Below are positions 1,845 through 6,357 of a stretch of 12,037 nt of DNA, piece after piece. Source of the DNA: Nitrosotalea sp. (lineage in GTDB: Archaea > Thermoproteota > Nitrososphaeria > Nitrososphaerales > Nitrosopumilaceae); contig JARLFW010000115.1 of NCBI GenBank assembly GCA_031296345.1, positions 1 to 12,037 on the forward strand, given 5' to 3'. Position 1 is the stretch's first letter, and every line of letters starts with the position of its first letter. The notes beneath the pieces were generated by a model that was given only the letters and a program-made list of their open reading frames with translations, searched no databases and was not told the DNA's origin. A program made the translations under genes and the position numbers.

Positions 1845-1902
1845 GCAAAAAATGCAAAATTTGTTCCTAGTTTAATAAGATTTTCAACGATCAGGAAAGG
1901 GC

Positions 1903-1912
1903 TAAATAATAT
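1903..1912 (+). promoter_or_regulatory. TATA-like box for the structured RNA
   Basis: TAAATAATAT is centred about 27 nt upstream of base 1934, exactly where the long hairpin begins. This is the normal archaeal TATA-to-start distance and supports independent plus-strand transcription of the RNA. Confidence 0.45.
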
Positions 1913-1933
1913 CAGGATTAGAACACAGATCTA

Positions 1934-2010
1934 AGTCAAGGGGTACACTGTGTCACCTGGCGTCAACTCCCCAAACTCTGGCGTCGATGATACAGTCCAG
2001 CCCCTTGGCT
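1934..2010 (+). ncRNA. Candidate structured small RNA (long three-segment hairpin)
   Basis: These 77 nt fold by hand into one long hairpin. The basal stem is 10 bp (1934-1943 with 2001-2010, AGTCAAGGGG/CCCCTTGGCT, one U-G). It is followed by a 3/4-nt internal loop, a 9-bp stem (1947-1955 with 1988-1996, one G-U), a small 2/1-nt loop, and an 8-bp apical stem (1958-1965 with 1979-1986, three wobble pairs). A 13-nt loop containing CCCC closes it. All five wobbles are G-U on the plus strand and would be A-C mismatches on the minus strand, so the RNA should be read on the plus strand. A TATA-like box sits about 27 nt upstream. T-runs at 2023-2026 and 2050-2064 could end the transcript. There is no tRNA T-loop, no box C/D pair and no recognised riboswitch core. 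An H/ACA-like guide or a thaumarchaeal-specific sRNA is possible. The rest of the 1764-2054 gap holds only the ilvA promoter region. Confidence 0.6.
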
Positions 2011-2054
2011 AAATTATGCTACTTTTAAAAAATACAACGATATAAACAATTTTT

Positions 2055-2915
2055 TTATTTTTTTAGAACTTTTACGGCGTTATCCATCAACACAAGCAAG
2101 TTTGTCTTGGTCTGCTCTGATATTCTGTACAAATTTATGTTTCCCTGTCGTATGTTGTTTTTTAGATACTCTAAATTAAAGTTGCAAAGACATCCTTCTT
2201 CTGCTGCGATCATTCTGTTCTCATCAATCATAACAGATGTGGTATGATATATTTCAATTAACATATTATCAAGCTCTCCAAATAATCTATCTCTGTTTGA
2301 AACAAGTTTTGTGTGTTCTGCATGTGATACTTCGATTGATTGAATAATATCCTGTGTTATGTCTTCGCGATTAAATAACACTTCAAATAATTTTTGGTCA
2401 TCCATTTCCTGATACCCTTTCTGTTTGAGTGTTTCCTCAATTATCTTGTCATTTTCAGGACCTACTTTTACCTGAAGCTTTGCAATCATGTCAGAAATAT
2501 CTGAGAGTTCTTTTTGGATCTCAATTACTCGGTGGTCAAGTTTATAGAACAACAATGCATGATATTGCAATGACATGTGTCCTGAAAGAAGATAGTTTCC
2601 CTCTTTTATCTCAAATTTTATAAAACTTCTTCGAAGATCTTTCTCTGCAGTTGCAGAAACGCCCTGATTGTCCCATCCTGGGAATTCATTGAGAAATTCA
2701 TCAAAGAACTTTCTAACTTGTGCAGGATCAAATGATTCTTGGTCTGTTACTGTACCATCCCCCAGCATTACCTTTAGAGGAACTTTTTTTGTAAGATTTG
2801 CAATATGTTCTTGAAATAAAGTACGCGCAGTTTCTGCCTTGTCACTCATTGATTTTATAAAAGGATCAGGATTGCTTGTGGGAATTTGCACTAATTGACT
2901 ATGAAAAACATCCAC
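2055..2915 (-). CDS. Conserved-looking protein of unknown function, helical
   Basis: A 286-residue soluble protein that I do not recognise. No signal peptide or membrane segment is visible. Residues about 125-150 (HRVIEIQKELSDISDMIAK) and 195-225 have the heptad-like, charged character of coiled coils. The last third carries a CxC pair (EEGCLCNF) and ends in a long helix. The listed start is GTG at 2915, close behind a TATA-like box; ATG at 2849 (MSDKAETARTL) is an equally good start and would give 264 residues. It is divergent from the zinc-ribbon/cyclase pair, and the palindromic box at 2931-2940 could serve both directions. Acidic and basic residues are mixed evenly, as in cytoplasmic helical scaffold proteins; that comparison is not a function call. 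Confidence 0.8.
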   Translation of the reverse strand: MDVFHSQLVQIPTSNPDPFIKSMSDKAETARTLFQEHIANLTKKVPLKVMLGDGTVTDQESFDPAQVRKFFDEFLNEFPGWDNQGVSATAEKDLRRSFIKFEIKEGNYLLSGHMSLQYHALLFYKLDHRVIEIQKELSDISDMIAKLQVKVGPENDKIIEETLKQKGYQEMDDQKLFEVLFNREDITQDIIQSIEVSHAEHTKLVSNRDRLFGELDNMLIEIYHTTSVMIDENRMIAAEEGCLCNFNLEYLKNNIRQGNINLYRISEQTKTNLLVLMDNAVKVLKK

Positions 2916-3113: not shown

Positions 3114-3905
3114 ATGAGTGAAAATACTGAAGATCCATCAAAAGATACTCCCACAAAGAGCTTTGTAGATATGATACTAGGTGGTGGCAAGTCTGGCACC
3201 TTGGATTCTGAGAGCCTCATCAAAGAGACACAGAAAAGAGTATGGAGTTCACTTAAGAAAGGATACGAGTATGACTATTCAGTAGACGAATCTGACACGT
3301 TTCTACGTAATCACGTATCACAGAAAATACACATGATAGTCATGTTCGTAGATCTTGTTGGTTCAACCGATATGGCGTTACAACTTCCACCAGAAAAACT
3401 TGGAATCATAATAAGTTCATTCTCACAAGAGATGCGTTCAGTCATACGTCACCATGGAGGTTATGTCTTAAAGTATGTGGGTGATGCAGTGATAGGATAT
3501 TTCGTTGCAGAGGAAGGCACTCTAGTGATGGCAGATAGCGCAGTAAACTGCGCAAAGACCATGATTGACGTAATTGAAAGAGGAATAAATCCAATTCTTA
3601 GTGAATATGATTATCCAGAATTGCGTGTAAAGATAGGGATGGACTTTGGAGAGAATGTAATAGTTAGATATGGTTCTGATGAAGCAAGATCGCATGTTGA
3701 TATTTTAGGTCCTTCAGTAAGTATTGCCGCAAAGATTACTGCTCTTTCAAAACCAAATCAAATTCTGGTTGGAAATGACATATATGAAAAACTTCATCCT
3801 AAATTGAAAAATCTCTTTGAATCAGTAGAGTGGCCAGATAATAGCTGGTCTTACCAAGACAAGAAGACTGGAAAGACATATCCCGTTTATGCATTACTCC
3901 ATTAG
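3114..3905 (+). CDS. Class III adenylate/guanylate cyclase-type protein
   Basis: This 263-residue protein has a class III cyclase homology domain at about 72-225, after a Ser/Thr/Lys-rich 60-residue N-terminus with no membrane segment. The two metal aspartates are present: Asp80 in FVDLVGST and Asp124 in VLKYVGDAV. So is the Lys120/Asp196 pair (LKYVGD and HVDILG) that normally selects adenine, so ATP to cAMP is the likely reaction. The transition-state Asn and Arg of the usual VNxAAR motif read as Ser203 and Lys207 here (VSIAAK), so activity may be weak or changed. Class III enzymes act as dimers with shared sites, so a partner could supply these residues. It follows the zinc ribbon by 6 bp and ends at a hairpin/T-run terminator. 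Family certain; catalysis unproven. Confidence 0.88.
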   Translation: MSENTEDPSKDTPTKSFVDMILGGGKSGTLDSESLIKETQKRVWSSLKKGYEYDYSVDESDTFLRNHVSQKIHMIVMFVDLVGSTDMALQLPPEKLGIIISSFSQEMRSVIRHHGGYVLKYVGDAVIGYFVAEEGTLVMADSAVNCAKTMIDVIERGINPILSEYDYPELRVKIGMDFGENVIVRYGSDEARSHVDILGPSVSIAAKITALSKPNQILVGNDIYEKLHPKLKNLFESVEWPDNSWSYQDKKTGKTYPVYALLH

Positions 3906-5953: not shown

Positions 5954-6238
5954 CTAATCGTCGCTTGCTTCTTGTGAGCGTGCTTCTTCCAAGTATGCCT
6001 TTCTTGCTTCAAGCTCTGCTTCCTTGTCAAGACCAGTGTCGTCTTCAACTACTATAATACCATCATCTTCCTGAACTATGTCTTCTTTTAGTTTGGTCTT
6101 TTCTTTTACCTTGCCCTTTGGAGCTTCCTTCTTAGCTGGTTCCTTTTTTGGAGCTACTACCTTCTTAGCTGGTTCCTTTTTTGGAGATACTGCCTTCTTA
6201 GCAGGCTTTTTCGCTAGTTTTTTCTTGTCCTTTGTCAT
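5954..6238 (-). CDS. Lys/Pro/Ala-repeat protein with acidic C-terminal half
   Basis: 94 residues from ATG at 6238; a GTG at 6256 would add six. The N-terminal half is basic and repetitive, built from KKEPAKK and KKAVSPKK units like the tails of eukaryotic histone H1 and bacterial HU-like proteins. The C-terminal half turns strongly acidic (EDIVQEDDGIIVVEDD) and ends in a Glu-rich helix and ASDD. No folded domain is recognisable. The charge split suggests nucleic-acid or ribosome binding with a self-masking or partner-binding tail (inference). The TATA-like GTTTAAAAGG (minus strand, near 6267-6276) supports the ATG start with a short leader. I know of no named family for it. Confidence 0.78.
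   Translation of the reverse strand: MTKDKKKLAKKPAKKAVSPKKEPAKKVVAPKKEPAKKEAPKGKVKEKTKLKEDIVQEDDGIIVVEDDTGLDKEAELEARKAYLEEARSQEASDD
6127..6206. repeat. 33-bp tandem repeat in the Lys/Pro/Ala gene
   Basis: The unit at 6127-6159 is repeated at 6160-6192 with 31 of 33 bases the same, and a third partial copy begins at 6193 (CCTTCTTAGC). The period is 11 codons, so copy-number change stays in frame and adds or removes one PAKK unit. Confidence 0.85.
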
Positions 6239-6357
6239 AAGACGATTATCAAACACGTAACATCATCCTTTTAAACTTGTCTTATAATTGAGCCACCCGG
6301 CCTTTTTCTTAATTTACCAAAGGAAATACGCCGATATTCGCATGTGTTGTATAGATA

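Follow-up and report, generated by a model that had tools for sequence, protein, structure and literature searches.

Gene order and fold at the locus

The window, i.e., the whole stretch of 12,037 nt that was analysed, belongs to an incomplete genome (78% complete) of the genus Candidatus Nitrosotalea. Two minus-strand genes frame the locus, namely ilvA, encoding threonine ammonia-lyase (positions 543–1763; TIGR01127 at 488.8 bits, cut-off 378.75), and a gene for a protein of 286 aa (2055–2915, minus strand; henceforth called the neighbour gene). A hairpin is encoded on the plus strand in the gap between them, divergent from ilvA and convergent with the neighbour gene. The neighbour protein had no match in Pfam (threshold 0.001) or NCBIfam (threshold 0.01), and its structure model was poor (mean pLDDT 66, pTM 0.48; five sequences). 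Its relatives were found in 221 of 250 genomes of the family Nitrosopumilaceae and also, with identities of 28–29%, in four genomes from other families within the order. An adenylate/guanylate cyclase domain protein (PF00211) is encoded at 3114–3905 (plus strand) and adjoins the neighbour gene; PF00211-like open reading frames were also seen by eye beside the neighbour gene in loci L132 and L133, and probably in L134. At 5954–6256 (minus strand), a small open reading frame contains Lys-Pro-Ala-rich repeats, possibly a nucleic acid-binding tail.

At the ilvA end of the gap, positions 1764–1787 had an identity of 0.83–0.87 in 15 close relatives, and this block reads as the TATA box of ilvA on the minus strand. 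As ilvA would hence have a conserved start block of its own, the hairpin is probably not its leader.

Using RNAfold, the paired segment was placed at 1934–2010 of the plus strand (77 nt), with three stems: P1 of 11 bp (1934–1944 with 2000–2010), P2 of 9 bp in the long Nitrosotalea form (1947–1955 with 1988–1996), and P3 of 8 bp (1958–1965 with 1979–1986), topped by a 13-nt hairpin loop (1966–1978). The length of P2 differs among relatives. An earlier note on this DNA had described stems of 10, 9, and 8 bp within 77 nt; the extent of the segment and the two upper stems agree with this, and P1 comprises 11 bp rather than 10 bp in RNAfold. Of its five wobbles, all said to be G-U on the plus strand, the orientation was found throughout, and the count is six with the terminal U-G pair of P1 and five without it. 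On the plus strand, the hairpin reached −43.2 kcal/mol compared to −25.7 ± 3.7 kcal/mol for 200 shuffled sequences (z = −4.71, none of the 200 as low); on the minus strand, z was −1.27 and 27 of 200 shuffles were equally low.

Homologues in Nitrosopumilaceae and covariation of the stems

A DNA search of 151 genomes gave matches at E ≤ 0.1 in 36 genomes, the weakest of which were at chance level. An alignment of 36 sequences (A2; one row, L023 at G030:C44, is not from the ilvA locus) served to build covariance model R1, which matched 42 of 250 family genomes. Matches were strong in 39 of these (E ≤ 5.4e-4; genera g1 and g6) and weaker in three, i.e., G043 and G065 with the right neighbours and G073 away from its match to the second model (R2, see below). 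Among the 39 genomes, G023, G029, and G030 matched only outside the ilvA locus. In addition, 40 further gaps from ten genera were picked by hand from matches to the neighbour gene. All 40 gaps taken beside this gene contained ilvA, and 20 contained a recognisable RNA form as judged by eye and fold (an extra fold in L159, located elsewhere, was excluded from this count). These forms were present in 12 of 12 gaps of g11, 3 of 3 of g3, 2 of 2 of g22, 1 of 2 of g12, 1 of 1 of g9, and 1 of 4 of g4, and in none of the gaps of g14 (0/8), g18 (0/4), g20 (0/2), and g21 (0/2).

Nineteen of the 20 recognisable forms together with L134 constituted alignment A4, from which R2 was built. R2 matched 78 of 250 family genomes, 73 of them at E ≤ 3.3e-7 (g3, g4, g11, g12, g17, and g22). 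The position relative to the neighbour gene was compared for 69 of the 73 strong matches (all except G292, G295, G299, and G302), and all 69 adjoin this gene; among the five weak matches, those of G228 and G055 adjoin it. When 20 R2 matches were fetched, 16 were flanked by ilvA and the neighbour gene, with the RNA on the strand opposite to that of the neighbour gene, and the other four were weak; both genes were present at 30 of 30 R2 loci from the search of the family genomes. Strong matches to R1 or R2 were found in 112 of 250 family genomes (39 + 73) from eight genera, counts which overstate the number of independent events as many of the sequences are closely related. Weak or by-eye cases came from g8, g9, and g20. 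On contig C1 of G079, the R2 match spans 749138–749203 (plus strand), and on contig C1 of G035, the R1 match spans about 966810–966905 (plus strand).

Even g11 was not fully covered, with G205 having the neighbour gene and no R2 match. With laxer filters, R2 found nothing better than E = 0.00175 in 30 genomes, mostly of seemingly lacking genera. R2 missed the g9 form seen by eye (at least one by-eye form was missed; G044, L153); hence, a genome without a match may still carry the RNA, and loss and divergence are indistinguishable there. Judging from these searches, several genera lack the RNA or have a form too diverged for recognition, and it is therefore not required across the whole family. 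The covarying stems that had been anticipated for homologous ilvA–neighbour gaps were thus recovered by covariance-model search in many relatives, with several genera lacking a recognisable form. Among 400 genomes of the class, R1 matched 36, none outside Nitrosopumilaceae. R2 matched 27 of 300 genomes of the phylum; three lay outside the family and were taken as chance matches because they were weak (E 3.3e-4 to 0.0086) and had neither ilvA nor the neighbour gene.

For A2, pair counts covered P1 and P3, leaving out P2, a minimum free energy stem of the long form. Nine of 17 tested pairs changed on both sides, in 32 cells (shuffled means 3.7 and 11.1; reached in 0 of 500 shuffles), and 93.3% of the cells were paired, compared to 26.7–52.9% when the strands were slid by one to three columns. 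P1 contributed ten tested pairs (95.8% of cells paired), of which four showed two-sided changes and four never varied, and P3 contributed seven (89.7% of cells paired), five of them with two-sided changes. In A4, two-sided changes were seen for 12 of 18 pairs, in 31 cells (shuffled means 4.9 and 8.2; 0 of 500), and 92.9% of the cells were paired (36.7–57.2% when slid). Both structures were derived from the same sequences, which are moreover related, and both circumstances favour them in these controls. The g17 forms had not been used in building R1 or R2 and hence lend separate support to the structure: in the six genomes fetched, the whole upper stem is replaced (GAACUA with UAGUUC) and still paired, P1 pairs across 13–16 bp, and the loop motif CUCCCC is kept.

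Cells with G-U outnumbered those with A-C by 65:6 in A2 and 50:12 in A4. The median z of the homologues was −4.8 (36 sequences) and −4.4 (20 sequences) on the plus strand and −2.7 and −1.9, respectively, on the minus strand (60 shuffles each). The better fold was that of the plus strand in 34 of the 36 and 19 of the 20 sequences. The excess of G-U over A-C and the better plus-strand folds indicate that selection acts on the plus-strand RNA, and the strand specificity of the pairing, which had been proposed from the wobbles of the window, is borne out by these ratios and by the z values of the hairpin itself. Comparison among relatives shows both the structure and the strand under selection, and we are highly confident that the conserved entity is a plus-strand RNA. 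Hairpins are common in gaps between genes, and this one occurs in copies at several loci (see below), as a chance hairpin or a palindrome or repeat acting at the DNA level might. We nevertheless regard such an origin as negligibly probable given the covariation, the strand bias, and the promoter-like position, the controls being strongly contrary to it, barring an alignment artefact.

Promoter-like site, predicted RNA ends, and paralogous copies

The putative promoter at 1894–1908 (plus strand) consists of the purine-rich, BRE-like GGAAAGGG (1894–1901) and the TATA-like heptamer CTAAATA (1902–1908), which precedes G1935 by 33 nt; G1935 is the first base of P1 to be strictly conserved. A TATA-like box upstream of the hairpin had been noted before, and a TATA-like heptamer preceded P1 in 55 of 55 homologue rows; 51 of them had it at −31 to −36, and the other four, in which the anchor took an earlier TCA, had it at −27. 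Only three rows had a second TATA-like match within 60 nt. The block at 1896–1907 was 99% identical to the window among 15 relatives, and among 12-nt blocks of the gap, conservation in 15 close relatives was highest for the promoter-like block (0.99), the 5′ strand of P1 (0.97), and the loop (0.94). This comparison shows the conserved position of the site. The structured plus-strand RNA put forward in the earlier note, with a promoter-like site of its own, is supported by this nearly constant distance, by compensatory changes in both tested stems, and by the wobble bias.

In archaea, transcription is expected to start about 25 nt downstream of such a box. The predicted 5′ end (1926–1933, plus strand) contains AGATCTA (1927–1933), of whose GATC each base was retained in 31–32 of 35 rows. 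From the promoter-like site, the RNA would start at about 1926–1932, fold as one long hairpin, and end between 2010 and about 2064; we infer both its transcription and these ends. The T-run that had been noticed after the hairpin lies at 2050–2064 (plus strand), overlaps the 3′ end of the convergent gene, and may be a terminator. No T-run was found at the corresponding place in the paralogues of locus B (see below).

A conserved downstream element, GATATAAACAA (2039–2049, plus strand), is located at a nearly fixed distance from P1 in Nitrosotalea-type loci. A loose pattern for GATATAAACA, which also accepts ATTTAA, ATATTAA, and TTTAATA, located it in 34 of 35 A2 rows and in all 13 paralogues, 30–36 nt downstream of where the P1 3′ end begins. 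Read on the minus strand, GATATAAACAA resembles a TATA box directed back at the hairpin. GATATAAACA may act either as a signal for the 3′ end or as the TATA box of an antisense promoter in convergent orientation. According to the latter possibility, the locus would produce a convergent transcript pair, with GATATAAACA (TGTTTATATC on the minus strand) driving an antisense RNA over the same hairpin, and the near-fixed distance even in paralogues with different neighbours would fit such a pair. We consider it unlikely, as the element was not seen by eye in the g11 sequences inspected, the wobbles reflect selection on the plus-strand RNA, and a 3′-end signal would explain the element equally well.

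Matches at more than one locus occurred in several g1 genomes and in one or two g6 genomes (G090; G309, which is 9% contaminated and has two ilvA-locus copies), and G018 has four RNA copies. Locus B comprises eight copies (L123–L129 and L131), the RNA following a gene of the 3-dehydroquinate synthase II type in L123, L126, and L129, where the neighbours were listed (Pfam-tested in L126 only). Of the five copies at locus C (L117–L121), four lie near a T2SSE-type ATPase, for which L119 and L120 were tested with Pfam, and three near a VirB4/TraC-like ATPase, for which L119 was tested; the remaining assignments are by resemblance. This vicinity of secretion- or conjugation-type ATPases suggests that locus C may travel on an integrated element. 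The additional copy in G030 (L023/L136) has other neighbours. In the paralogues, few changes affect the basal stem, CUCCCC, or CAGUUCC, and a TATA-like site is retained. A diverged second R1 match in G011 (L122:897–985), with the loop AUCUCUCCUU and no clear TATA box, could be a decaying copy or a chance match and was excluded from the paralogue counts.

That the RNA also occurs next to unrelated genes argues against a role in cis for ilvA and favours action in trans. A cis element on the minus strand, i.e., a leader of ilvA or, for the convergent gene, a terminator or a hairpin in the 3′ UTR, would account for the synteny (ilvA in 40 of 40 gaps beside the neighbour gene), and the minus strand does fold somewhat (z < −2 in 28 of 36 and 8 of 20 homologues). 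Against this, the G-U/A-C bias and the better folds are on the plus strand, ilvA has its own conserved start block, and the paralogues lie beside other genes, so that we regard a cis element as very improbable. An ilvA leader or riboswitch in particular was rejected, since the structure is selected on the plus strand and ilvA lies on the minus strand with a conserved block at its start. We infer action in trans, and our preferred reading, held with some reservation, is a stand-alone noncoding RNA gene acting in trans through its C-rich motif. The variable stems would be a scaffold presenting single-stranded CUCCCC, which the RNA would offer to a partner.

A wider scenario goes well beyond this, and we put it forward as speculation: a small regulatory RNA of Nitrosopumilaceae that stayed at one locus while the genera diverged, spread to further loci in Nitrosotalea lineages, and was lost from others would address many targets via the fixed CUCCCC and possibly form one half of a convergent sense/antisense pair.

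Known RNA classes and possible partners of the CUCCCC motif

The earlier note had found no fit to tRNA, SRP RNA, RNase P, C/D RNA, or a riboswitch known to its author. In the catalogue searches, Rfam 15 gave no match at the gathering cut-off in the window and eight homologue loci, relaxed Rfam searches of the window stretch and six further loci gave matches far below the cut-offs only, and ARAGORN found no tRNA or tmRNA gene in the window. H/ACA guide RNAs have a two-sided guide pocket and an ACA box just 3′ of the lower stem. Archaeal representatives resemble the present RNA in being hairpins of similar length with an internal loop; they differ from it in that no two-sided pocket is present here (the 3′ side of the loop mostly comprises 0–3 nt in g11 folds) and no Rfam match was obtained. 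With a one-sided internal loop and no conserved ACA directly after P1 (by eye), this class was rejected. C/D box guide RNAs carry a C box (RUGAUGA) and a D box (CUGA), and no conserved boxes of this kind were seen by eye in A2 and A4.

Based on these comparisons, the RNA looks like an uncatalogued family of small structured RNAs common to many ammonia-oxidising archaea. Among the literature matches listed, no description of a structured RNA common to this archaeal family was found, and it may have been detected earlier as an anonymous transcript. Genetic manipulation of ammonia-oxidising archaea, which are abundant, is difficult; a candidate for which position, strand, promoter-like site, fold, and motif are known lends itself to immediate checking in the transcriptomes of cultured species and to testing by pulldown. 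Tan1 of marine group II Euryarchaeota, described as a noncoding RNA of high abundance (PMC5069720), is likewise an uncharacterised archaeal small RNA; it comes from another phylum, and the comparison covers its description. For the candidates of Weinberg et al. 2010 (PMC2864571), which are structured RNAs as well, the evidence is of the same kind, i.e., conserved structure without known function, and the main text of that publication contains no occurrence of Nitrosopumilus, Cenarchaeum, or crenarchae.

The apical loop contains the motif ACUCCCCA (1966–1973, plus strand), which was invariant in 36 of 36 A2 rows. Its core CUCCCC was present in 99 of 109 usable distinct sequences, which are related and not independent; one of 110 sequences (L193) had been cut wrongly, and four R2 matches without synteny (L223–L226) were left out of the motif and alternative-fold counts. 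The ten variants were UUCCCC or UUUCCCC (4), CCCCCC (2), CUCCCU (2), AUCCCC (1), and CUCCUCC (1). In Nitrosotalea, the site belongs to the apical loop; in Nitrosopumilus-type forms, it belongs to an internal loop that is one-sided. A near-invariant unpaired stretch, as shown by this comparison, amid changing stems implies a partner. The bases flanking CUCCCC differ between genera, and a pairing seed would hence span only about 6–8 nt.

One partner had been proposed within the RNA itself, the CCCC of the loop meeting GGGG of the basal stem in an alternative fold. A 4-nt partner of CCCC (GGGG, GGAG, GGGA etc.) occurred upstream in 87 of 110 sequences, so that pairing is possible on paper. Coevolution was not found, as 92 of 500 permutations reached the observed value among 59 N-type and 128 of 500 among 36 T-type sequences; true P1 partners, in contrast, exceeded all 300 permutations in both sets. 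As permuted bulges matched P1 roughly as well as those actually present, this fold was rejected.

As partner in trans, base pairing with G-rich sites in other RNAs is our first choice, tentatively and as a guess. The C-rich region is reportedly what the staphylococcal small RNA IsrR works through. Staphylococcal small RNAs with C-rich regions, IsrR among them (PMC9410917), may be comparable in that the present RNA, too, may work through an exposed C-rich stretch. They belong to another domain of life, no homology is expected, and no shared target was found here for an 11-mer complement. This complement had 53 matches in 31 of 37 genomes of the genus, 31 at the RNA loci and 22 elsewhere (six for a reversed-pattern control). 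Across the 20 of these 22 places examined (G002:C26 and G019:C50 were left out), no mRNA target shared across the genus was found. The genes concerned vary, TGGGGAGTTGA often encoding Trp-Gly-Val at the matching site, and genes in common link two to four genomes only.

As a close second choice, and with similar diffidence, the RNA could serve a protein as scaffold or decoy, with the C-rich strand and perhaps the 3′ AGUUC element as binding sites and without base pairing to RNA. The nearly constant motif with varying flanks, the lack of a conserved RNA target for the 11-mer complement, and CAGUUCC as a second conserved segment in the short forms of A2, aligning with the 3′ strand of P2 (1988–1996), would agree with this. 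No candidate protein is linked to the RNA, however, and the neighbour gene also occurs in genomes without detected RNA.

For base pairing, individual RNAs were also considered. Complementarity to the mRNAs of ilvA and the neighbour gene was unremarkable (0.255 and 0.17 of 200 shuffled seeds, respectively, as good), and one exact pattern had no match in viral contigs. Helix 27 of the 16S rRNA was dropped as a target, G035 reading GGGAAGU there. The 23S rRNA of G035 (Nitrosotalea) contains UUGGGGAGU, with which the loop could pair by complementarity (a fraction of 0.01 of 200 shuffled seeds did as well). In G064 (g11), the 23S rRNA retains the site and the RNA reads CUCCCCUU, with two pairs lost, which leaves the 23S match as a weak lead only.
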